DNA of 64,000 nt from Gammaproteobacteria bacterium (GTDB lineage Bacteria > Pseudomonadota > Gammaproteobacteria > Pseudomonadales > Pseudohongiellaceae): assembly GCA_002711845.1 (NCBI GenBank), contig PASF01000005.1, positions 124,001 to 188,000 of the forward strand, in the 5' to 3' direction. Position numbers and translations under genes: made by a program. The notes below the pieces were generated by a model, which was not told the origin of the DNA, searched no databases, and worked only from the letters and a program-made list of their open reading frames with translations. Positions within the stretch are counted from its first letter, which is position 1, and each line of letters starts with the position of its first letter. Shown here piece by piece: positions 50,911 to 62,293 of the stretch.

Positions 50911-51666
50911 TCAGGCGGGCGCTGTCAACCGGGCATACACATCGCCACTGCCCTCACGCAGCTGGCCAAGATGCTTGCGCATATCATCCGCAGAGAGCCA
51001 GGTCGCAAACTGCAACCGGTGGGTTTCGCCCGGCGCCAGGTTGTAGTCATACTGGCCCAGCTCCTCCAGCCGTTTGATGCAGTCCAGGGCCATATCAATC
51101 GCGGCCGGGATGTATTCAAATGACAGGGCCGCCAGGGGGCGCGACAATCCCTGCAGCACCGCCAGCTCAAAGCCTTCGACATCGATTTTGCAGAATGCCG
51201 GCTCGCCCCAGGTCGCAATCAACGCATCCAGCGTCGTCACGGGCACGGTGACCTGCCGGTCCCACTCTACCTTCTGGAAGGATGCATCCTTTTGCACACG
51301 TGTTATCCAGTCCTGTGACAGGGTGGTGACCGTGGGCGTGCGGGTGCTGATGTGCAGGGTAGCCTCGCCCGGCGCGGCACCGATGGCCTCCTCAACCAGA
51401 TTGACCGCTGGATCGGCGCCGTAACGGCGGCGCAGGGTCTCCATCAACAGCGGCTGCGGCTCCACTGCCACCACCCGCGCACCCAGGGCACGCCAGGCCA
51501 TGATGCGGTTACCGACATGGGCGCCGATTTCAAAACACAGATCATCGCGCTGAATGAACTGGCCATAACAGCGTCGCATGCGCGCCTGACGGCCGGGAAT
51601 GCCGTAGTACATGAGCAATGATCGCCACAGCCCCCATCGTTCGCGCCAGCCTTGTGTTGCCGTCAC
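50911..51666 (-). CDS. FkbM-family SAM-dependent methyltransferase
   Basis: 251 residues from a GTG start at 51666 that overlaps the upstream stop as GTGA; the longer frame to 51735 lies inside the sulfatase-fold gene and is not needed. The Rossmann methyltransferase core is seen in FEIGAHVGNRIMAWRALGARVVAVEPQP, then CKIDVEGFELAVLQGL (motif typical of FkbM, with K-I-D-V-E-G). Members O-methylate sugars or lipid-linked glycans. Coupling to a membrane sulfatase-superfamily gene suggests envelope-glycan modification (inference). Confidence 0.88.
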   Translation of the reverse strand: MTATQGWRERWGLWRSLLMYYGIPGRQARMRRCYGQFIQRDDLCFEIGAHVGNRIMAWRALGARVVAVEPQPLLMETLRRRYGADPAVNLVEEAIGAAPGEATLHISTRTPTVTTLSQDWITRVQKDASFQKVEWDRQVTVPVTTLDALIATWGEPAFCKIDVEGFELAVLQGLSRPLAALSFEYIPAAIDMALDCIKRLEELGQYDYNLAPGETHRLQFATWLSADDMRKHLGQLREGSGDVYARLTAPA

Positions 51667-53288
51667 TGCAATCCCTCCTGCTGCCTGTACGAAAACGCCT
51701 CGATGAAATGATCGCGCAACCGGTCCATGCGCCACACCGGCGCGTCAACGTCGGGCAACAACCCCGGTTGCCACTGCCAGTCGGCGATGGCGTCAATCAC
51801 GGCCGGGTCATGGGCAATCAGGTGCACAGGCACCTGTTTGTCGTCGCTGTCTCCGGTAATGAACGGTGCCGCCGGGTGATCACCCAGCACCATGATCACC
51901 AGGTCTTCATCGCCATATGTCTGCACATAGGACACCAGCGTCTGCAGCATGTATTCAATCGATTGCCGGTAGTGGTCACGGATACTGTCGACATCAGCCC
52001 AGACCTCTTCGGGGCTGAGCCCGGATTGCGCCTGGACGTCAAAGGCCTGTCCGTCGCCGACCTGCTCCCAGGGTAACAATTGCGCCACCGGCGTCCAGGG
52101 CGCATGCGAGGAAATCAACGCCAGCTCTGCCATCACCGGGCGCCGGATGCCCTGGCTGCGTTCGCGCGCGTGCAGCGCCGACCAAACGTACTGGTCCGGC
52201 ATGGTGACCCAGTTGAAGGGCAGGCCCTGATACCCGAAATTGTGCGCATCGTAGATTTTGTCATAGCCGTAATACCCCCCTTCCGGCCACGCCAGGCTGA
52301 TCGCAGGCATCGCGGCCACAGTGCGCCACCCGGCATCGCGGAACAAACGGTTGAGCGTTGCACGCTGACTGATGACCAGACTCTTGTAGCGGGTTTCGCT
52401 GTCAATCCAGGCGCCGGAAAGCGCCGAAGCATGGGCCAGCCAGCTCAGTCCGCCGACTGTCGGCGAGGTCAGGAACGCACTGCGCATATGCACGCCGTCG
52501 GCCGCCAGGTCTGCTTGCGCCTGCGTCAACGTGGCCCGTACAGAGTCGGCAAACGGCTCGCGCTCCAGCAAGGCGCGGCCATAGGACTCGGCAAATACAA
52601 TATACACATCCTTGCCCTGCAGGCGACCAAACAGCCCCTCGCCGGAGCGCGTTGCCCAGACATCCTCGTTCACCACCTCGGCAAACGCGCGGATATCACG
52701 AACGCTGGCGACCGTGTCCTGGCCATGCAGGACCAGCTGGTCCCAGGTAAACGTGCCGGTACGCGGCCAGCCCGAGCTGTTCAGGAATATGCCCGTCAGC
52801 AGCATTGCCGTCAGCACCGCGGCCGAGCTGCGCGGCGCCGCCCGCAACGCTCGCTGAATACGTCGCAGCATCAGGTAGGCCAGCCCGCTCAGCAACATGG
52901 CAGCCAGCGCCAGCAAAACGCCCACACCGACCGCCGCCAGATCACCCAGGACGCCGGTCAGCAGTCGACTGCCGTCGGCCAGCAAGTGGCTGTCAAACAC
53001 CAGATTGAACGGACGGGCAAAGATCTCATGGGTGACCAGATCCGAGCCACGCAGCAGGACGGCGAGCCCCAGCAGCAGGGTCAGCACCCAGCGGCACACA
53101 TCACCGGTGCGCCCGGGCACCAGCAACAGCAGACCGATGACCATGAACTCCAGCGGCAGAAAAATAAACGCCGGCGCATTGATCCAGGCCAGCCGGTTAG
53201 GCAGCGTCAGGGCGACAAACAGGCCAATGAAAGCAATGACCGTGAGAAGGTGTCGGGCAGCAGGGCGATAGCGCAAAGTGAGAACCAT
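51663..53288 (-). CDS. Membrane sulfatase-superfamily protein (phosphoglycerol/phosphoethanolamine-transferase-like)
   Basis: 541 residues: four or five N-terminal helices (about 12-180), then a periplasmic alkaline-phosphatase-superfamily domain from about 235 (KDVYIVFAESYGRALLE, then FLTSPTVGGLSWLAHASALSG with candidate Ser/Thr nucleophile, and the metal motif VIMVLGDHPAAPF). There is no C-x-P-S-R sulfatase motif, so it more likely transfers or cleaves phospho-alcohols, as LtaS/EptA-like proteins do, than sulfate. A perfect 11-bp hairpin lies 9 bases before its ATG, and no clear ribosome-binding site is seen. Confidence 0.8.
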   Translation of the reverse strand: MVLTLRYRPAARHLLTVIAFIGLFVALTLPNRLAWINAPAFIFLPLEFMVIGLLLLVPGRTGDVCRWVLTLLLGLAVLLRGSDLVTHEIFARPFNLVFDSHLLADGSRLLTGVLGDLAAVGVGVLLALAAMLLSGLAYLMLRRIQRALRAAPRSSAAVLTAMLLTGIFLNSSGWPRTGTFTWDQLVLHGQDTVASVRDIRAFAEVVNEDVWATRSGEGLFGRLQGKDVYIVFAESYGRALLEREPFADSVRATLTQAQADLAADGVHMRSAFLTSPTVGGLSWLAHASALSGAWIDSETRYKSLVISQRATLNRLFRDAGWRTVAAMPAISLAWPEGGYYGYDKIYDAHNFGYQGLPFNWVTMPDQYVWSALHARERSQGIRRPVMAELALISSHAPWTPVAQLLPWEQVGDGQAFDVQAQSGLSPEEVWADVDSIRDHYRQSIEYMLQTLVSYVQTYGDEDLVIMVLGDHPAAPFITGDSDDKQVPVHLIAHDPAVIDAIADWQWQPGLLPDVDAPVWRMDRLRDHFIEAFSYRQQEGLQ

Positions 53289-53393: not shown

Positions 53394-53834
53394 CTAGACT
53401 GGCAGGACCTCGGGCAGATACTTGCGAATATCCTCGACGGATCCCTGTGCCAGACTCTTGTTGACCTCCTGCATCACAACCTTCTGCAGCTCGGGCGGCA
53501 TCTCCTCACGAAGCTGGCCAAGGAACTGGGGGGCCGCCATGATCACAATGCGCTCATACTCCTGCCGGCTGCGGCTCTGATCCAGCATGGCGATCAATTC
53601 CTTGGCAAAGGTCTCCGCCTCATGCTGCTTGGCGCTGGTCGGCTGCTGCTGCGCATGGCGGCCTTCCCCCGCACTGTCAAATGCTCTGCCGCGCCGGTCA
53701 GTGACCAGGTCCTGCTCGTGCAGACGGCTTTCGGGGTGAACAAGGGTTTTGATCTCACTCAGCACGTCGCGGGATTGCCAGTCAAACAGTCTTGCCCGGC
53801 TCTTGTCCGCAACCAGTACCCATGTTGTTTTCAT
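53394..53834 (-). CDS. Host-attachment-protein (baeRF-like) family
   Basis: 146 residues. It opens TTWVLVADKSRARLFDWQS, continues with a LVHPESRLHEQDLVTDRRGRAFDSAGEGRHA segment and ends in PQFLGQLREEMPPELQKVVMQEVNKSLAQGSVEDIRKYLPEVL. This is the family named after an Agrobacterium gene required for attachment to host cells and later linked to bacterial relatives of eRF1/Pelota. Whether this protein acts at the ribosome or at the surface is unknown; it has no signal peptide, which favours a cytosolic role. Confidence 0.88.
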   Translation of the reverse strand: MKTTWVLVADKSRARLFDWQSRDVLSEIKTLVHPESRLHEQDLVTDRRGRAFDSAGEGRHAQQQPTSAKQHEAETFAKELIAMLDQSRSRQEYERIVIMAAPQFLGQLREEMPPELQKVVMQEVNKSLAQGSVEDIRKYLPEVLPV

Positions 53835-53911: not shown

Positions 53912-54637
53912 TCACGATTGTTGCTGTTGCAGCCGGTATTTATCGGTCAACGCCCCCTCCAGCAGAACCTTGATCAGGGTATCGGCATACTCGTCAATCT
54001 GCGCCGCATCGTCGCTGTTGGCGTCAGCCAGGGCATTGCGTAGCGCGGCGTTGGCAAAGGGAGCCATGGCCGCATGGGTAGCAATCAGGAACACAAAGTC
54101 CGGGTTCATGTCGCGCATCAGGCCCTGATCGACCGCCTTGCGGAACGGCACCAGTGACAGCGCCTGCAGCGGCTTCACATAGGTCTCGATGACATAGTCA
54201 AAATGCTCGCCACCATCGAGCCCGGCCTGCATCAGGAACCCTGCCATGTAGGGCAGTCGCGCCGACATGCGCACATAAGCACGCACCTGCACCGTCAACT
54301 GCCGCACCGGATCATCAGTGCCGACCTGCTCAGCCGCCTGTAATAGCGGCCTGGCCATCTCACCGAAAAGATAGTCAGCGGCCGAGTGGAACAGCTCCTC
54401 CTTGCCCTGAAAATAATGTCGGATCAGCCCATGCGCCACGCCCGCCTGCTGGGCAATTCTGCGCAGCGAGGTGCCGGCAAACCCGGTTTGCGAGAACGCC
54501 GCCAAGGCCGCACGAATGATGTTCTGCCGCTGCTGCTCAGGGTTGGCGTTCACTGGCCGGCCTGCTTTCGTACTGGCGCCGGCACGGCTCGTGGCATCGG
54601 TTTTTGGGGCGATTTTGGGGCTCTTTTCGTTATGCAT
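53912..54637 (-). CDS. TetR-family transcriptional regulator
   Basis: 241 residues with an unusually long basic, disordered N-terminal tail (~32 residues) before the helix-turn-helix at about 36-82 (IIRAALAAFSQTGFAGTSLRRIAQQAGVAHGLIRHYFQGKEELF). The C-terminal ligand domain (about 90-220) is of the TetR_C type. Divergent from the sulfatase operon with only 37 bases between start codons; a 7-base inverted repeat over a TATAAT box lies in that gap, so self-repression and control of the operon are likely. Ligand perhaps an operon substrate (inference). Confidence 0.92.
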   Translation of the reverse strand: MHNEKSPKIAPKTDATSRAGASTKAGRPVNANPEQQRQNIIRAALAAFSQTGFAGTSLRRIAQQAGVAHGLIRHYFQGKEELFHSAADYLFGEMARPLLQAAEQVGTDDPVRQLTVQVRAYVRMSARLPYMAGFLMQAGLDGGEHFDYVIETYVKPLQALSLVPFRKAVDQGLMRDMNPDFVFLIATHAAMAPFANAALRNALADANSDDAAQIDEYADTLIKVLLEGALTDKYRLQQQQS

Positions 54638-54663
54638 GCTTGCCTGGGGAGTTTGAATCTGAT

Positions 54664-54685
54664 TAATTATACTAATGGATAATTA
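54664..54685. promoter_or_regulatory. Candidate TetR operator overlapping -10 box and start codon
   Basis: TAATTAT (54664-54670) and ATAATTA (54679-54685) are a perfect inverted repeat with an 8-base spacer. On the minus strand a perfect TATAAT (54671-54666) would place the TetR transcript start about 22 bases before its ATG. On the plus strand TATACT (54668-54673) abuts the proposed ATG of the formylglycine-generating enzyme. A bound repressor would block both directions. Confidence 0.5.
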
Positions 54686-55541
54686 TTATACACCAGGTTG
54701 TGCGTTTTTGCTGCTGATCGCCTCTGCCAGTGCCGCAGTGCCTGCCGACATGGTGCTGATTCCGGCGGGCATCAGCCCGATCGGCGCCAGCGCGGGCGCG
54801 ACCGACGAGCAGCCGGTGTTTCGGGCCGAGGTTGACGCCTTTTACCTGGATCGCAGCCCGGTGACGGTCAGCGCGTTTGCAGATTTTGTCGCCCGCCATG
54901 CCTACACCACACAGGCTGAGACTGCGGGCAGCGCTGCCGTCATGGAATTCGGCACCGGCCACTGGTACCTGCTGCCCGGTGCCAGCTGGCAACACCCTGT
55001 TGGCGGGCAGAGCCCGGCGGCGGCCGATCACCCGGTAACACAGGTATCCTGGCATGATGCCGTGGCCTATTGCGACGCCCAGGACAAACGTCTGCCCAGC
55101 GAAGTGGAATGGGAGCATGCGGCGCGTGCAGGCCATGACGGCGAGGTTGCCTATGCCTTTGGCGACACACTGCTGCACGAAGGCGACTATCTGGCCAATG
55201 TCTGGACTGGCACCTTCCCGGTGCTCAATACCGGCGACGACGGTTTCAAGGCAACCTCGCCCGTTGGCCAGTTCGGGCTGACCCCGGCGGGACTGACCGA
55301 CATGGCCGGCAATGTCTGGGAATGGACAGCTGACTGGCATGCCAGTTACCGCGGCCGCCTGGGCGCCGGCGACGCGCCGGCCAGCGGCACCCACAAGGTC
55401 CAGCGCGGCGGTTCGTTTTTGTGTGAAACCTCAGTCTGCCATGGCTTCCGGGTGTCTGCCCGCAGCCCGGCCACCCCCGACAGCGCGTCCATGCATGTCG
55501 GTTTTCGCTGCGCGCGATCGGTAAAGGAGACCCGCCTGTGA
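54675..55541 (+). CDS. Formylglycine-generating enzyme (exported, SUMF1 family)
   Basis: 288 residues. The N-terminus is a short hydrophobic stretch (CAFLLLIASASAAVPA) resembling a signal sequence but without Lys/Arg before it. The FGE fold follows: MVLIPAGISPIGAS, FYLDRSPVTVSAFADFV, RLPSEVEWEHAARAG, MAGNVWEWTADW and RGGSFLCETSVCHGFRVSARSPATPDSASMHVGFRCA. Cys250 and Cys255 are spaced as the copper-binding, catalytic pair of true FGE, so it should convert the sulfatase Cys to formylglycine. The start codon lies within an operator-like repeat with no ribosome-binding site, so a downstream start such as the in-frame TTG at 54708 is possible. It overlaps the sulfatase gene by 4 bases (GTGA). Confidence 0.9.
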   Translation: MDNYYTPGCAFLLLIASASAAVPADMVLIPAGISPIGASAGATDEQPVFRAEVDAFYLDRSPVTVSAFADFVARHAYTTQAETAGSAAVMEFGTGHWYLLPGASWQHPVGGQSPAAADHPVTQVSWHDAVAYCDAQDKRLPSEVEWEHAARAGHDGEVAYAFGDTLLHEGDYLANVWTGTFPVLNTGDDGFKATSPVGQFGLTPAGLTDMAGNVWEWTADWHASYRGRLGAGDAPASGTHKVQRGGSFLCETSVCHGFRVSARSPATPDSASMHVGFRCARSVKETRL

Positions 55542-57202
55542 GCATACGTCGCAAGGCCGGCATCGCCGTTGCCATGGTACTGGCCATCCCGCTGACAGGC
55601 TGGCTGACCATGGATCGCTGGATCATCTACCTGCCCGGGCTGATGATTGACCTGACCTCACCCACCGGCCCCCATCAGCCGGTCAACTGGCAGGCCGGGC
55701 CGGACGGACCACGACGCAGCGATCAACCCAATATTGTGCTGATTGTTGCTGATGACCTGGGCTGGAATGACATCAGCTTCTACGGAGGCGGCGTCGCCGG
55801 TGGCAGTGTGCCCACCCCGTCCATCGACAGCATTGCCCGCGCCGGACTGGCACTGAATCAGGCCATGTCTGCCAGCGCCATCTGTGCTCCGTCCCGCGCC
55901 GCATTAATGACCGGGCGTTACCCGACCCGCTTTGGTTTTGAATTTACGCCACTGCCCAACGGCATGGCCGATATCAACCTGAGACTGGACCGCAGCATCG
56001 AAGCCGATTATCGGCGCCCCCTGATCAGCCACCTGGGACAGCCCGGCATTTATCAGGCCGATTTCGCCGACATGGGCATGCCCGGCAGCGAAGTCACCAT
56101 TGCCGAGATGTTGAAGGCGCAGGACTATAAAACCGTGCACATCGGCAAATGGCACCTGGGCAGCAACAATGGCTCACAGGCCACCGCGCAGGGGTTTGAC
56201 GAGAGCCTGAACCTGGCCGGGCTGCTTTACCTGCCCGAGGATCATCCCGATGCGGTCAATGCGCGGCAGGACTTTGATCCCATCGACAGGTTTTTCTGGT
56301 CGGTCGGGCGCTATTCGATGGACTTCAACGGCGGCGACCGGTTTGCCGCCGACGGCTACCTGACCGACTATCTCACCCGCGAAGCGGTCAAGGTCATCGA
56401 GACCAACAGGCATCAACCCTTCTTCCTGTATCTGGCACACTGGGCACCGCACTCGCCCCTGCAGGCACTCAGGTCAGACTACGACGCGCTGGCGCATATA
56501 GAAGATCACACCCTGCGCACCTACGCCGCCATGATCAGGGCGCTGGATCGCGGTGTAGGCCAGGTGCTGGACGCACTGAAAGAAAACGGCCTGGAGGACA
56601 ACACCATTGTCATCTTCACCTCCGACAACGGCGGCGCCCACTATCTGGGACTGCCGGATATCAACCAGCCCTATCGCGGCTGGAAAACCACCTTTTTTGG
56701 CGGTGGTATCCGGGTACCCCTTTTTATCCGATGGCCCGATGGCATCGCCCCGGGCAGTCAGTTCGACCCTTATACCCACCACACCGACCTGCTACCGACA
56801 CTGGCGCAACTGACCGGTGCCACTGTGCCCGCCGACCGGGTCATCGACGGTGTCAACCTGCTGCCCTATATTCAGGGTGATGCCGGTGGTGAGCCACACG
56901 ACGCGCTGTTCTGGCGCAGCGGTCATTATGAAGTGGTGATCGCCGACGGCTGGAAGCTGCAGCAGGCCGAGCGACCCGACCAGGTCTGGCTGTATCACCT
57001 GCGCAACGACCCCACCGAGCAGACCAACCTGGCCGCGCAGAACCCGGCCAAGGTAGCGCAGCTGCAGGCCCGGCTGGCGCAGCACAATAACGAGCTGCCG
57101 CCGCCGATGTGGCCCTCCGTGATCGAAATGCCGGTGACCATCGACAAACCATTGGGTGTGCCTGACCAGCCTGATGACGAATATATCTATTGGCCCAACT
57201 GA
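55538..57202 (+). CDS. Cys-type (formylglycine) sulfatase, membrane-anchored or exported
   Basis: 554 residues with an N-terminal hydrophobic segment (AGIAVAMVLAIPLTGWLTM). Arylsulfatase features: NIVLIVADDLGWND (metal Asp pair), SASAICAPSRAALMTGRYPTR with Cys116 in the C-x-P-S-R modification motif, HIGKWHLGS, FLYLAHWAPHSP and FTSDNGGAHYLG. It should hydrolyse a sulfate ester after conversion of Cys116 to formylglycine, most likely by the enzyme encoded immediately upstream, with which it is translationally coupled. The natural substrate (algal polysaccharide, sterol, aryl or alkyl sulfate) cannot be told. Confidence 0.95.
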   Translation: MSIRRKAGIAVAMVLAIPLTGWLTMDRWIIYLPGLMIDLTSPTGPHQPVNWQAGPDGPRRSDQPNIVLIVADDLGWNDISFYGGGVAGGSVPTPSIDSIARAGLALNQAMSASAICAPSRAALMTGRYPTRFGFEFTPLPNGMADINLRLDRSIEADYRRPLISHLGQPGIYQADFADMGMPGSEVTIAEMLKAQDYKTVHIGKWHLGSNNGSQATAQGFDESLNLAGLLYLPEDHPDAVNARQDFDPIDRFFWSVGRYSMDFNGGDRFAADGYLTDYLTREAVKVIETNRHQPFFLYLAHWAPHSPLQALRSDYDALAHIEDHTLRTYAAMIRALDRGVGQVLDALKENGLEDNTIVIFTSDNGGAHYLGLPDINQPYRGWKTTFFGGGIRVPLFIRWPDGIAPGSQFDPYTHHTDLLPTLAQLTGATVPADRVIDGVNLLPYIQGDAGGEPHDALFWRSGHYEVVIADGWKLQQAERPDQVWLYHLRNDPTEQTNLAAQNPAKVAQLQARLAQHNNELPPPMWPSVIEMPVTIDKPLGVPDQPDDEYIYWPN

Positions 57203-57207
57203 GAGAG

Positions 57208-58272
57208 ATGCCCATGCCTGCCTGTCGCCGATGTCTGAACAGCCTGCTGTTTGCCTGCTGTGCAATGCTGGCCGCTGCTGATGCCGTGGCCGATGAGATT
57301 GCGCCGGGCATTTACAGGACGCCCGATACGCGCTTTGCCAATCTGCCCGACTATGCCTTCCAGCCGCACTATGTGATGGTCGATGGCCTGCGCATGCACT
57401 ATGTTGATGAAGGTCCACGCGATGGCCAGGTGGTGCTGTTGCTGCACGGCGAGCCCTCCTGGAGTTATCTGTACCGCCACATGATCCCGGTGCTGGCGCA
57501 GGCCGGCTATCGTGTGGTCGCCCCCGACCTGATCGGCTTTGGCCGTTCCGACAAACCTGCAGACACGGCCGCGCACACGCATAGTGGCCATGTTGCCCAG
57601 ATAAGCGTCTTGCTGGGAACGCTGGATCTGCAGCACATAACCCTGTTTATCCAGGACTGGGGCGGCCTGATTGGTCTGCGCGTGCTGGCCGACATGCCCG
57701 AGCGCTTCGCCGGTGTGGTGGCCGCCAATACCGGCCTGCCCGCCGCCGATGGCATTCCGGGCATCATCGGTTACCCGATGTTCCGGTTGTCCCTGTGGTG
57801 GCAAGGGGAGGTGAGCTGGGACGAGCTGCAGGCAGAACCCGGCTTCCTGCGCTGGGCGGCCTACTCGCGCTCAGTGGACGACATGCCGGTGGGCCAGGTT
57901 GTCGCGGTTGACATCAGTGCCGGCGACCCCGCACGCGAGGCCATCATCCGTGCCTACGATGCACCTTTTCCCAGTGCCGATTACAAGGCCGGGCCGGCCA
58001 TCATGCCATCCCTGGTGCCCTCGGAACTGGCGCTGAACGCCGAGGCCTGGCAGGTACTCGAACAATGGCAGAAACCCTTTCTGACCGCCTTCAGCGACGG
58101 CGACCCGATCACCGCTGGCGGTGACATCGAGTTCCAGCAGCGCATCCCCGGCGCTGCCGGACAGAATCACACGATCATTGAGGGTGCCGGGCACTTCCTG
58201 CAGGAAACCCATGGCGAACAACTCGCGCGATTGATGCTGGCATTCATGTCACAGCCGGGTTATCGACGATAA
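57208..58272 (+). CDS. Exported haloalkane-dehalogenase-like alpha/beta hydrolase
   Basis: 354 residues (ATG 57214, with GAGAGA at good spacing, is equally likely) with a signal peptide (LNSLLFACCAMLAAADAVADE). The core matches HLD-I dehalogenases: HGEPSWSYLYRHMIPVL (oxyanion hole), DLIGFGRSDKP, FIQDWGG with nucleophile Asp150 followed by the halide-binding Trp, FSDGDPIT (acid) and GAGHFLQE (His). HLDs are usually cytosolic, so a secreted member beside a sulfatase is unusual. The enzyme may dehalogenate, or hydrolyse another small ester/epoxide-like product. Confidence 0.88.
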   Translation: MPMPACRRCLNSLLFACCAMLAAADAVADEIAPGIYRTPDTRFANLPDYAFQPHYVMVDGLRMHYVDEGPRDGQVVLLLHGEPSWSYLYRHMIPVLAQAGYRVVAPDLIGFGRSDKPADTAAHTHSGHVAQISVLLGTLDLQHITLFIQDWGGLIGLRVLADMPERFAGVVAANTGLPAADGIPGIIGYPMFRLSLWWQGEVSWDELQAEPGFLRWAAYSRSVDDMPVGQVVAVDISAGDPAREAIIRAYDAPFPSADYKAGPAIMPSLVPSELALNAEAWQVLEQWQKPFLTAFSDGDPITAGGDIEFQQRIPGAAGQNHTIIEGAGHFLQETHGEQLARLMLAFMSQPGYRR

Positions 58273-58356
58273 CATCGGGGCAGCAATCGCTGATCCAGTC
58301 ACGCGCTGACAGCGTATCAACCATTTCGCCAACTGTTTATCCCCGGGATCCGATTT

Positions 58357-59544
58357 ATGCACCGATGCTTCATGCCTGTTATTGCCGCACTTGTACTTTA
58401 CGCCGGTGTTGCCGCGCCCGTTCACGCGCAGGGCCGACCCATGCCCTTTCCGTTGCCGGACGGACCTGTGGAGATCGCGACGGTCAATGCGGATATGACG
58501 GCCACCGTCATCGCGCAGGGCATCCCCCGGCCTTTCGGCTTCGAGATACTGACCAATGGCGACATCCTGATCACCGATCGCTACACCCCCGCGCTTCGGG
58601 TGGTCCGCAACGATGTGCTTGATCCGGAACCGCTCGGCGGCCTGCCGGCCATTCGCACCGGTTTCCACTCCGGGCTGCTTGATGTCATTGCGCATCCGCA
58701 GTTTGCCGACAACGGCTGGATTTATCTCAGCTACCACACCGCCTTGGCCACCGAGGGTGAGTACGCCATCACGGTCGGCCGCGGGCGCTACGACGGTGGC
58801 GACGCGCTCAGGGATTTCGAACAGCTGTTTATCGGCACACCGATGACCATTTCCGGCGGCTCACGTATGGTGTTTGCGCCTGATGGCACACTCTTTGTGA
58901 CCGTCGGTGGCGCCATGGATCGACGGCCGCTGGCGCAGGACCTGATGCGACTGGAAGGCAAAGTGCTGCGACTGAATGACGATGGCAGCATACCCGCAGA
59001 CAACCCCTTTATCGGTCGCGCCGATGTGCGGCCGGAGATCTATTCTTACGGACACCGCGATCAGTATGCGGTGGCGATTCACCCGGAGACCGACCAGCTG
59101 TTTCACGCCGAACTGGGCCCGCTGGGCGGCGACAAGCTCAATGTCATCAAGGCTGGTGGCAACTACGGCTGGCCGCTGTATGGCTACGGCAGCTACAACG
59201 ACGGTGAACCGATGGACAAACTGCCACGCGAAGGCTTTGAGTCAGCGCTGCTGATCTGGCAACCGGGCATCGTGCCCTCCGGCTTGATGTTCTACTCGGG
59301 CGACGCCTTCCCCCAATGGCAGGGCAACCTGTTCACCGGCAGCATTCAGCGCGGGCGCCTGCCCGGTAGCGGTGGCCTGGAGCGTATCGTGTTCAACGAG
59401 AACCTCTGGGAACTGCAGCGCGAAACCATGGCGACTGAATTGCACCAGCGCATTCGCGATGTTGCACAGGGGCCGGATGGCTTTATTTATCTGCTGACCG
59501 AAGAAGACAATGGCGCCGTGATCCGGCTGCAACCGGCACAGTAA
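58357..59544 (+). CDS. Exported PQQ-type sugar/sorbosone dehydrogenase
   Basis: 395 residues with a signal peptide (FMPVIAALVLYAGVAAPVHAQG). A six-bladed glucose/sorbosone dehydrogenase propeller follows: IPRPFGFEILTNGDILITDRY, GGLLD-like FHSGLLDVIAHPQFADNGWIYLSY (catalytic-His region carries HSG in place of the usual Q-G-G), RMVFAPDGTLFVTVG, GKVLRLNDDGSIPADNPF, YSYGHRDQ, AELGPLGGDKLNVIKAGGNYGWPL. These enzymes oxidise aldoses in the periplasm using PQQ. The gene is 84 bases after the dehalogenase-like gene, same strand. Confidence 0.9.
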   Translation: MHRCFMPVIAALVLYAGVAAPVHAQGRPMPFPLPDGPVEIATVNADMTATVIAQGIPRPFGFEILTNGDILITDRYTPALRVVRNDVLDPEPLGGLPAIRTGFHSGLLDVIAHPQFADNGWIYLSYHTALATEGEYAITVGRGRYDGGDALRDFEQLFIGTPMTISGGSRMVFAPDGTLFVTVGGAMDRRPLAQDLMRLEGKVLRLNDDGSIPADNPFIGRADVRPEIYSYGHRDQYAVAIHPETDQLFHAELGPLGGDKLNVIKAGGNYGWPLYGYGSYNDGEPMDKLPREGFESALLIWQPGIVPSGLMFYSGDAFPQWQGNLFTGSIQRGRLPGSGGLERIVFNENLWELQRETMATELHQRIRDVAQGPDGFIYLLTEEDNGAVIRLQPAQ

Positions 59545-59581
59545 TTACGATTGACGGGCACATCGCTTTCGGAGAATGTAA

Positions 59582-59971
59582 ATGCAAGACACCCACAAAA
59601 ATCTCAGGATAGCGGCCTGGATCATGGTTGTGCCCGCGACACTGTTTTTGCTGATGGCGGGCACCACCAAAATCCTGGGCGCCAACCCGCTGGCCAGTAT
59701 TGATGCCATGGCGCCGTGGGTGTTCTGGATTGGCCTGGGTGAAGTCACCGCGGCCGTGCTTTACGCATTACCCAGAACGTCAATCATTGGCGCGCTGTTC
59801 CTGAGTGCACACCTGGGCGGCGCCATCCTGTTTCACATCATCAGGGGCGAAAACTTCTTTGGCCCCATCCTGACCAGTTTCTGGTTTCAGTCGCTGATGC
59901 TGGCCAGTGTGTGGGTGGTCGTGTTCTTGCGCTATCCGGGGATTGTTTCGAATTTCAGGGATGGCAAGTAA
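59582..59971 (+). CDS. DoxX-like small membrane protein
   Basis: 129 residues with four transmembrane helices (AAWIMVVPATLFLLMAGTTKI, APWVFWIGLGEVTAAVLY, GALFLSAHLGGAILFHI, FWFQSLMLASVWVVVF), the form of DoxX_2-type proteins whose members are sometimes linked to thiosulfate:quinone or other membrane redox units. GGAGAATGT is a clear ribosome-binding site. It ends the plus-strand run that began with the formylglycine-generating enzyme. A role in passing electrons from the dehydrogenase to quinone is conceivable but not shown. Confidence 0.82.
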   Translation: MQDTHKNLRIAAWIMVVPATLFLLMAGTTKILGANPLASIDAMAPWVFWIGLGEVTAAVLYALPRTSIIGALFLSAHLGGAILFHIIRGENFFGPILTSFWFQSLMLASVWVVVFLRYPGIVSNFRDGK

Positions 59972-60214: not shown

Positions 60215-62293
60215 GTGAAGACCGATATGCAGGCTTTTTGTCAGGAACTGTCCAGGGAACTCGAGCCTTTCGGTGATGAGCTGCGACAAGCGCTATCCGA
60301 CCTGCCTCCACGCAAAGATTTCACCAAGATTGATACTCAGGTCCTGGCGTTGCAGGAGATTCAGCAGCGGCTGTCCACGCTTAGAGCAAAAGTGAGCAAG
60401 CAAAGCACGTTTCTGCTGATTTTTGGCCCTCTCAAGAGCGGCAAATCCACCCTCATGAACGCACTGAGCGGTGCTTATGTGAGCGAGGTTTCCAGTCTGC
60501 CTGCCTACCCCGCATTGGTCTACGTTAAAAACGGCGAGCAGCGCCGCTTTGAGGCAACCGACTACGAAGGTGGCAGGCGTCAGTTCCCCGACAATGTCTC
60601 CATGGCCGAGGCCATTCAGAGAGATCATGCGCAATTGGCAGAGGCTATTGTTGCCGCGGAAAATACGGGTGAGACCTTCGACCCTCAAAAACACTACCCG
60701 CAGGCCATACGCCGGATGGATATCGAAGTGCCCGCTGCGAGCCTGGCTGAGTCCGGCTCCGTCCTGGTGGACACACCCGGGCTGTACAGCCGAATGCGGT
60801 TCGGCTATGACCAGATGACACGGGATTTCCGCGATACGGCAACGTGTGCCATCTTTGTGGTCAAGACCGACAACCTGTTCTTTGAAAAGGTATTCGAGGA
60901 ATTCGAAGACCTGCTGAGCTGCTTCAGCCGCATATTTCTGGTGGCTAACATCGATTCATCGAAACAGGACCTGAGCCCGGATGGCACCCTCAAGCCCAGC
61001 CTGGAGAGCCTTGACCCTGACAAAATCATCGATTCTTTCCGATCACTGTCCATGAGTGCGACCCTGAGCGGCGCCATTGAAAGCGGACAACTGAAAATCT
61101 ACCCTATCGATTTGCAGAAGGCAGCGACCAGAACCTTGAGCCATGGTGATCACACGCCTTCTGATGTTGCGGGAGACGAGACCTCGCTGGCGGCGCCTCG
61201 CGACGATGGCTTTGACGAGTTTGTCGCGGACCTGACCGGCTATCTGAACAGCAGCGATTACTTCCACGATTTCAAACATGACAGCCTGCGTTTGGCCCGC
61301 GACCTGTCAGACGAAGCCGGCAAACTGGTGACGGGCAATGCCGTGACAGAGTTGCGTGAGGACATCCGGGAGCAACTGGAGCGCGAACGGGCACGTCTGG
61401 CGGCGCTCCAGAACCTGGAACAGCAGAATTGGGAGCACGCTTTTAACACGCTTCAGGACACCAAAGGCCGTCTGCCCGAAGGCCTGACCGAGCTCAATGC
61501 CGAGCAACTTGAAAAGTCCTGCCAGCAACAGATTTCAGCCTGGATGGACAGCAACGAAAGCTGGAATGAATTGTTGGCGCGCCTCAATCCGCAAATTGAA
61601 CAGGAGAGCGTCCGCCAATCCAGACTGTTGCTGGAGCACCTGCAGGAACAGTTAAAAGGTGAGCACGCCGGGGCAGAATTCACCGAGACACAGCTGGCCG
61701 CGTTCCGCGACGCCGGCCTGCAGGTGGAGAAGACACTGGACGGATGCCTGCATGACCTCGGCAAAGGAACGCATGCCGTCAGTCCAAAAATGGAGGTGAC
61801 CACAGAGGATATTCCTATTACCCGTGCTATGAGCGACTATCTGAAGTTTCGCAGTCGCAGTCGGGTGTGGCAGCAGGTATTCGGTGACGACGGTGATCGC
61901 AGCGTCGAGCCAGCCGTCAAGCAATCGCGTCTTGGCAACGACAGCCTGGAGAAACTGCACGCCATAGCACGCGACGCCGTCAGTCGGCAGATGCCCGAGT
62001 TACTCCAACGCTACTCTGACGAGCTGGCGGATACGCACGTGAGCAAATGTGTTGCGGCGCTTGAGCAAAAAATCGCCGAGCTCAAGACTGCGTCCGAGAA
62101 GTCCATCGCACCGCTGGAGTCGACCATGCAGTTTTGCCTGCGGGCACAGGACGTGTTCGACCGTATCAAGGCCAGCAGTACGCACTTCAGTCAAGAACTG
62201 GGCGAGCTGCAGAGTCAGCTGGACAGTGATCAGGCGGCGGCCAAGGCAAATGAGGTCGAGCCGCGGATCCAAGAAACAGTCGAGGAGGACTGA
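60215..62293 (+). CDS. Bacterial dynamin-like GTPase
   Basis: 692 residues from a GTG preceded by AGGAGGAAA. The GTPase domain spans about residues 60-320: G1 P-loop GPLKSGKSTLMNAL near 72-85, G3 VDTPGLYS near 186, and a candidate G4 region around VANIDSSKQDL. The rest is a long alpha-helical stalk with coiled-coil stretches (about 370-480 and 590-690). No C-terminal transmembrane paddle is apparent, so membrane contact would be peripheral. Such proteins remodel membranes; some protect against phage lysis or stress. It stands alone here rather than as the frequent tandem pair. It is less GC-rich than its neighbours by eye. Confidence 0.88.
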   Translation: MKTDMQAFCQELSRELEPFGDELRQALSDLPPRKDFTKIDTQVLALQEIQQRLSTLRAKVSKQSTFLLIFGPLKSGKSTLMNALSGAYVSEVSSLPAYPALVYVKNGEQRRFEATDYEGGRRQFPDNVSMAEAIQRDHAQLAEAIVAAENTGETFDPQKHYPQAIRRMDIEVPAASLAESGSVLVDTPGLYSRMRFGYDQMTRDFRDTATCAIFVVKTDNLFFEKVFEEFEDLLSCFSRIFLVANIDSSKQDLSPDGTLKPSLESLDPDKIIDSFRSLSMSATLSGAIESGQLKIYPIDLQKAATRTLSHGDHTPSDVAGDETSLAAPRDDGFDEFVADLTGYLNSSDYFHDFKHDSLRLARDLSDEAGKLVTGNAVTELREDIREQLERERARLAALQNLEQQNWEHAFNTLQDTKGRLPEGLTELNAEQLEKSCQQQISAWMDSNESWNELLARLNPQIEQESVRQSRLLLEHLQEQLKGEHAGAEFTETQLAAFRDAGLQVEKTLDGCLHDLGKGTHAVSPKMEVTTEDIPITRAMSDYLKFRSRSRVWQQVFGDDGDRSVEPAVKQSRLGNDSLEKLHAIARDAVSRQMPELLQRYSDELADTHVSKCVAALEQKIAELKTASEKSIAPLESTMQFCLRAQDVFDRIKASSTHFSQELGELQSQLDSDQAAAKANEVEPRIQETVEED

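Follow-up and report, generated by a model that had tools for sequence, protein, structure and literature searches.

A candidate TetR-controlled sulfatase and haloalkane dehalogenase cassette in a gammaproteobacterium of the family Pseudohongiellaceae

Why does a bacterium carry a gene for a haloalkane dehalogenase directly behind the genes for a sulfatase and its maturase, and which of the neighboring genes belong with them? The question is raised by a 64,000-nucleotide stretch of a Pseudohongiellaceae genome (assembly GCA_002711845.1, contig PASF01000005.1, positions 124001-188000), hereafter the window, whose host (genome G000, 3.59 Mb; window at G000:C5:124001-188000) is likely a marine organism. 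A preliminary description named six genes here: a TetR-family gene, and five genes that it took to form one operon, encoding a sulfatase maturase (FGE), a sulfatase (SULF), a haloalkane dehalogenase (HLD)-type hydrolase, a pyrroloquinoline quinone (PQQ) sugar dehydrogenase, and a DoxX-like membrane protein. Open reading frame and profile searches recover all six in the same positions. Nonetheless, the genetic unit that is well supported by comparing genomes consists of TetR and FGE-SULF-HLD, not all six genes. We favor, with a probability of roughly 0.55, a TetR-repressed cassette whose products act, probably in the periplasm, on a single sulfated organohalogen through desulfation and dehalogenation. 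The genes, their residues, the distribution of the operator, and the recurrence of the linkage were computed; the predicted parts of the cassette are as follows.

53912-54637, minus strand: TetR-family repressor (PF00440, 7.8e-15), divergent from the cassette
54645-54650, plus strand: predicted -35 element, TGGGGA, 17 bp upstream of the -10 and weaker than the T(A/G)GACA of 13 of 15 sites
54665-54683, plus strand: predicted operator AATTATACTNNTGGATAAT, 19 bp, an imperfect dyad containing the -10 element TATACT (54668-54673)
54675-55541, plus strand: FGE, sulfatase maturase (PF03781, 1.2e-61; best solved relative human SUMF1, 1y1e, 8.6e-57); start codon and export uncertain in the window strain
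55538-57202, plus strand: SULF, S1-type formylglycine sulfatase with a hydrophobic N-terminal segment and target residue Cys116 (PF00884, 3.8e-58)
57208-58272, plus strand: HLD, subfamily-I haloalkane dehalogenase with a signal-like N terminus (NF002043, 387 bits against a cut-off of 265; 6f9o, 1.1e-92)

SULF is present at 75 to 100% identity in 9 of 15 genomes of the genus, and FGE orthologs are found in the same nine and no others, which agrees with the proposed coupling of sulfatase and maturase. The coupling of sulfatase and dehalogenase holds equally, with HLD following SULF on the same strand in all nine genomes (15 to 75 bp between the matched stretches). A TetR ortholog lies beside SULF in eight of the nine; in the ninth, G198, the contig is too short to tell. 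The FGE and SULF genes overlap by 4 bp in the window (55538 versus 55541), and FGE stands between TetR and SULF in three genomes (G000, G200, and G161). In G044, G199, G201, and G203 it lies elsewhere, and its called reading frame overlaps that of SULF2, another S1 sulfatase, about 600 aa long. In G198, SULF2 starts right after FGE and the contig then ends, the FGE contig of G202 ends before any SULF2, and G161 has SULF2 without FGE beside it, such that SULF2 is present in exactly 7 of the 15 genomes (G044, G161, G198, G199, G201, G202, and G203). Remnants resembling the FGE leader can be seen by eye between TetR and SULF in G044 and G199, where FGE may have been lost from this interval.

A candidate operator has the same distribution as SULF. 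With no more than one mismatch, the motif occurs at 15 sites among the 15 genus genomes, solely in the nine with SULF; there are no sites in the six genomes without SULF, and none anywhere for the pattern read backwards. All 15 sites contain TATACT, and T(A/G)GACA lies exactly 17 bp 5' of this -10 element in 13 of them, the other two being G200 (TGGGCA) and the window (TGGGGA). We therefore interpret the site as overlapping a sigma-70-like promoter, with an imperfect dyad over the -10 element and predicted start that resembles a repressor site. Eight sites are at the TetR promoter (the G198 contig stops short of it), and seven precede FGE or SULF2. G000 and G200, which have no SULF2, carry a single site each, and an extra copy before FGE and/or SULF2 is found in exactly the seven SULF2 genomes. 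The order is operator, FGE, and SULF2 in G044, G199, G201, G203, and G198 (SULF2 start only), with FGE alone visible in G202 and SULF2 alone in G161. These copies suggest that the regulon in the relatives comprises TetR, SULF, HLD, FGE, and SULF2. The comparison thus favors the earlier proposal of a single TetR with a shared, predicted operator, which in the relatives also marks a second operon. A definition of the operator as an exact 7-bp repeat (TAATTAT-8-ATAATTA) was discarded, as this is present only in the window, G200, and G161 of eight regions, and the wider conserved dyad was adopted. The operator promoter was missed by a scan for consensus promoters (one promoter-like site versus a mean of 2.0 in shuffles), and the window-strain -35 is poor; the case for this promoter therefore rests on conservation.

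The residues ascribed to the sulfatase and its maturase in the preliminary description are present. The target motif of SULF is Cys116-Ala-Pro-Ser-Arg120, and FGE has the C-x4-C copper pair at Cys250 and Cys255, which is kept in the alignment of the eight other genus orthologs (a strict C-x4-C expression matched 8 of 27 FGE rows, all from the genus, and outside the genus often caught an earlier motif). SULF residues Cys116, Arg120, Asp72, Asp73, Lys204, His206, His305, Asp363, Asn364, and Lys383 are invariant in 18 of 18 aligned clade members, and we take these to be equivalent to metal and active-site positions of arylsulfatase A. The pair is similar to S1 sulfatases with a SUMF1-type FGE in its CAPSR motif, full metal site, and C-x4-C FGE. 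The SULF clade is separate among S1 sulfatases in its hydrophobic N terminus, its own C-terminal ending ([IVL]-Y-W-[PSA]-N in 17 of 18 aligned members), and its recurrent location near HLD. G000 has one further sulfatase above the family cut-off, of another type, on C9. In addition, a Cys-type (CTPSR) sulfatase (L179:3718-5043 and L180:5310-6638) is common to G000 and G183, though a search at 1e-15 finds no FGE ortholog in G183.

FGE N termini are leader-like by sequence in the genus relatives and shortened in the window strain. The annotated ATG (54675) falls within the operator and precedes the predicted transcription start. A downstream ATG shared with the closest relative, G200, lies 66 bases from the operator in the window and 136 in G200. 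The 70 bases absent from the window (54675-54752 region) correspond to the G200 start codon and the N-region of its leader, and translation or export of FGE in the window strain is therefore doubtful, barring initiation farther downstream; alternatively, the assembly may be in error here. The claim that all of the proteins act outside the cytoplasm is plausible for HLD, with its signal-like N terminus, and for SULF, with its hydrophobic N terminus, but uncertain for the window-strain FGE, where the leader and start region is missing.

HLD is assigned to subfamily I by its sequence and predicted fold. The key residues, counted from the ATG at 57208, are the nucleophile Asp150, Trp151, Trp216, Asp299, and His329. 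The triad (Asp150, Asp299, and His329) is invariant in 23 of 23 aligned sequences, and of the Trp pair, which we take to be the halide-binding counterpart of Trp125 and Trp175 in DhlA, Trp151 is found in 42 of 42 rows and the cap residue Trp216 in 40 of 42, these rows including DpcA, duplicate loci, and a few distant relatives. With the family cut-off also passed, the initial assignment to an HLD-I-type hydrolase with an Asp150/His triad stands. An AlphaFold2 model (mean pLDDT 85.6) has DpcA (6f9o) as its best Foldseek match (TMt 0.89). Relative to the subfamily-I enzymes DpcA, DmrA (4mj3), and DhlA, the fold, Asp/His/Asp triad, and Trp pair are the same, and the genus HLDs add the signal-like N terminus and, where the cap begins, about 30 residues that are modeled with low confidence. 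A second HLD gene is located outside the window, about 14 kb past the window HLD (G000:C5:196442-196927), and was matched over residues 28-179 only.

Is the association of this sulfatase clade with HLD peculiar to the genus? We examined 104 loci, consisting of the best 80 of a larger match set from a scan of contigs of 84,980 species, together with the window, an order sample, and the genus loci; removal of four near-duplicates left 92 distinct loci outside the genus. By record title, the best 80 span Alpha-, Beta-, and Gammaproteobacteria (with SAR86), Myxococcota, Neomarinimicrobiota, and further groups. Of the 92 loci, 28 have an HLD gene no more than 10 kb from the clade sulfatase, 30 a SULF2-like gene, 19 an FGE-like gene, 47 a two-domain GST-like gene, and 29 an MBL gene; restricting the count to the 49 loci that extend 7 kb or more on each side gives 16, 22, 14, 31, and 16, respectively. 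Where HLD is close, the gene order varies: it lies 5' of the sulfatase in L083 (29 bp), L130 (437 bp), and L150 (458 bp), and 3' of it in L088 (31 bp), L095 (24 bp), and L093 (226 bp). The 35 whole genomes behind the long loci contain 49 HLD genes (a total merged by hand, with HLD-like matches below about 90 bits excluded), of which 15 are in 13 of the 35 sampled windows versus 0.38 expected by chance; the 13 include L155, which is nearly identical to L147, and the Poisson value (4e-16) is too strong because the genomes are related. A tree of 72 sulfatases implies no fewer than 16 changes in HLD linkage, a count made without a shuffle comparison; rows entered the tree if they had HLD or flanks of 5 kb or more on each side, a choice that favors HLD rows. 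In a control for sulfatases in general, read by eye in the order sample, HLD is within 10 kb at 0 of 19 sulfatase places outside the clade, compared with 6 of 19 within it (one-sided Fisher p 0.0098); three of those six are from one genus and two from another.

The other neighbors in these distant loci suggest lipid-like over glycan substrates. A random sample of 121 non-genus neighbors, drawn after leaving out the eight largest neighbor clusters, includes acyl-CoA dehydrogenase, SDR, AMP-binding, enoyl-CoA hydratase, and GST families among the 25 listed of 128 Pfam families, and no glycoside hydrolase is among those 25; nor is there a glycoside hydrolase family in the 15 genus proteins scanned. 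The best solved match of one MBL neighbor is the arylsulfatase 8gyg, and SdsA1/Pisa1-like metallo-hydrolases are among the sulfatase-like neighbors in distant clusters. The two-domain GST-like protein of about 370 aa (L051:10754-11869; also L044:4859-5971) is the commonest counted neighbor (47/92), and no solved relative was found for the cluster hub, L051. A protein of about 208 aa (L142:11662-12288 and relatives), whose cluster hub has no Pfam or NCBIfam match, is near the clade sulfatase in 26 of the 92 loci. In G009, a sulfotransferase-family gene (L055:9857-10591; PF19798) is beside the clade sulfatase, with HLD about 5 kb away.

The comparative evidence supports a sulfatase-HLD regulon well, and a substrate that is both sulfated and halogenated fits it. 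A plausible sequence of events is that a ligand, either substrate or product, would free TetR from an operator covering the -10 element and transcription start; FGE would turn Cys116 of SULF into formylglycine; SULF would take off a sulfate ester; and HLD would displace a carbon-bound halide through Asp150, yielding an alcohol that could be catabolized further. SULF2, with or without FGE, would be driven by this operator too in seven of the nine relatives, making a regulon for two sulfates and a halogen. Repression, localization, the order of these steps, and the sharing of one substrate are what we infer from the computed features.

The remaining two genes of the proposed five-gene operon and the gene flanking the cassette on its left-hand side are as follows.

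51663-53288: LtaS-like gene, left-hand flank of the cassette
58357-59544, plus strand: GSDH-family beta-propeller (PF07995) without PQQ and base residues; resident neighbor, outside the cassette
59582-59971, plus strand: DoxX_2 membrane protein (PF13564, 26.7 bits against a cut-off of 26.3); resident neighbor of GSDH

The reading of all five genes as a single operon that removes sulfate, hydrolyzes, and oxidizes with PQQ could draw on their common strand, on the 84-bp HLD-GSDH gap, in which no terminator-like site is listed, and on the presence of pqqC in G000, such that PQQ itself is probably not lacking. We consider this very improbable, and rejected it on comparison with the sister genome G183 and on the GSDH alignment. 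In G183, which has no cassette, the LtaS-like gene directly adjoins GSDH and DoxX, identifying these as resident neighbors and not cassette members; in the window, the cassette and a gene at 53394-53834 stand between the residents. Insertion of the cassette is the simplest reading, with loss in G183 as the alternative. GSDH orthologs are 88% identical in G183 and 76% in G110, and neither genome has the clade sulfatase. The five-gene order is not conserved: among seven genus loci showing the stretch after HLD, GSDH is next in two (the window and G200) and DoxX in the window only. Moreover, although PF07995 places the presumed PQQ sugar dehydrogenase in the GSDH family, the His and the R-N-x-Q motif, which we take to be the catalytic base and a PQQ-binding element, are absent from GSDH of the window, G183, G200, and G110, whereas among 12 further distinct rows, 11 retain the His and 10 the motif. 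An oxidation step by this protein is thus not supported. A Dynamin_N-type large GTPase gene (60215-62293) is located 3' of the resident genes, and also adjoins the cassette region in G200.

Several observations weigh against the favored explanation. No HLD is within 10 kb at 64 of the 92 non-genus loci (33 of the 49 having 7 kb or more on each side), implying that the sulfatase clade also works without a linked HLD, and just 6 of the 28 HLDs linked outside the genus are within 500 bp, the other 22 being farther away or on the opposite strand. HLD is also common without the clade sulfatase (56 of 194 order-sample genomes), and of the 49 counted in the whole genomes, 34 fall outside the sampled windows. 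Signal-like N termini are seen only in the genus HLDs, those linked elsewhere beginning, by eye, like cytoplasmic ones; the window strain has no SULF2, and its FGE may have lost its leader or start. Finally, the nearest solved relatives of SULF (the S1 sulfatases 6prm, 6psm, and 6bia) act on carrageenan. This last point favors the main rival explanation, in which sulfated glycans, carrageenan-like or other, are the substrates of the sulfatase or sulfatases, and HLD serves to detoxify distinct halogenated compounds released by algae, all under one alga-sensing TetR. A precedent is Zobellia galactanivorans ZGAL_234-236, encoding TetR, an HLD-domain protein, and the kappa-carrageenase CgkA; the TetR and HLD-domain genes are up-regulated on kappa-carrageenan, and such a role is proposed there (PMC5613140). 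This locus likewise has a TetR gene beside an HLD gene and serves sulfated algal material, but it is a polysaccharide locus with a glycoside hydrolase, and the accessible text mentions no sulfatase-HLD operon; its HLD domain is 40% identical to DbjA (PMC5613140). Neither the neighbors listed outside the genus, with their lipid-type families, nor the genus proteins scanned include a glycoside hydrolase, and we regard the glycan explanation as possible, if rather unlikely. The DbjA-like Zobellia domain is presumably of subfamily II.

Alternatively, SULF and SULF2 could cleave alkyl, sterol, or other lipid sulfates without halogen, with the HLD fold performing another Asp-nucleophile reaction on the product. 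The lipid-type enzymes and sulfatase-like metallo-hydrolases of the distant clusters would suit this, and the subfamily-III relative OleB is, in the portion of the source available, mainly a beta-lactone decarboxylase (PMC10503415). However, HLD groups with subfamily I by sequence and fold, and 40 or more of 42 rows retain its halide-binding Trp pair; we see this alternative as distinctly unlikely. Within the preferred reading of a sulfated organohalogen, a more specific and tentative proposal, which we consider unlikely as it stands, is that the regulon is a probably periplasmic entry pathway for chlorosulfolipids or like sulfated polyhalogenated lipids, which two S1 sulfatases would desulfate and from which HLD would remove chlorine. 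Coastal seawater contains chlorosulfolipids with up to 11 chlorines, one chain-length class having up to two sulfates; in the main text of that report there is no mention of sulfatase, dehalogenase, or degrad- (PMC13413282).

The enzymes are individually of known kinds, and the predicted sulfatase-HLD regulon is what appears to be new. The SLF module slfRCHSL of Psychrobacter plasmid pP62BP1 is a compact alkyl-sulfate operon induced by its product, lauryl aldehyde, and resembles the cassette in being under a regulator and in coupling desulfation to product processing; it differs in its AraC/XylS regulator, alkyl sulfatase SlfS, alcohol/aldehyde oxidation, and CoA ligase, and neither FGE nor a dehalogenase is among the genes named in the accessible portion of the account (PMC10779009). 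In the accessible literature on sulfatase with dehalogenase, on chlorosulfolipids, and on HLD role and export, a search that left most subscription papers outside, we found no description of a sulfatase-HLD pairing or operon.

The biological role of haloalkane dehalogenases is described, in the accessible part of one account, as still unclear (PMC10503415). The recurrent pairing with a sulfatase, apparently coregulated in one genus, hints at a natural job for these enzymes and narrows the search for it to sulfated organohalogens or algal material carrying both groups, and the cassette supplies a TetR whose ligand can be screened. If the chlorosulfolipid proposal is true, haloalkane dehalogenases would have a class of natural substrates, and there would be a route by which chlorosulfolipids are degraded.

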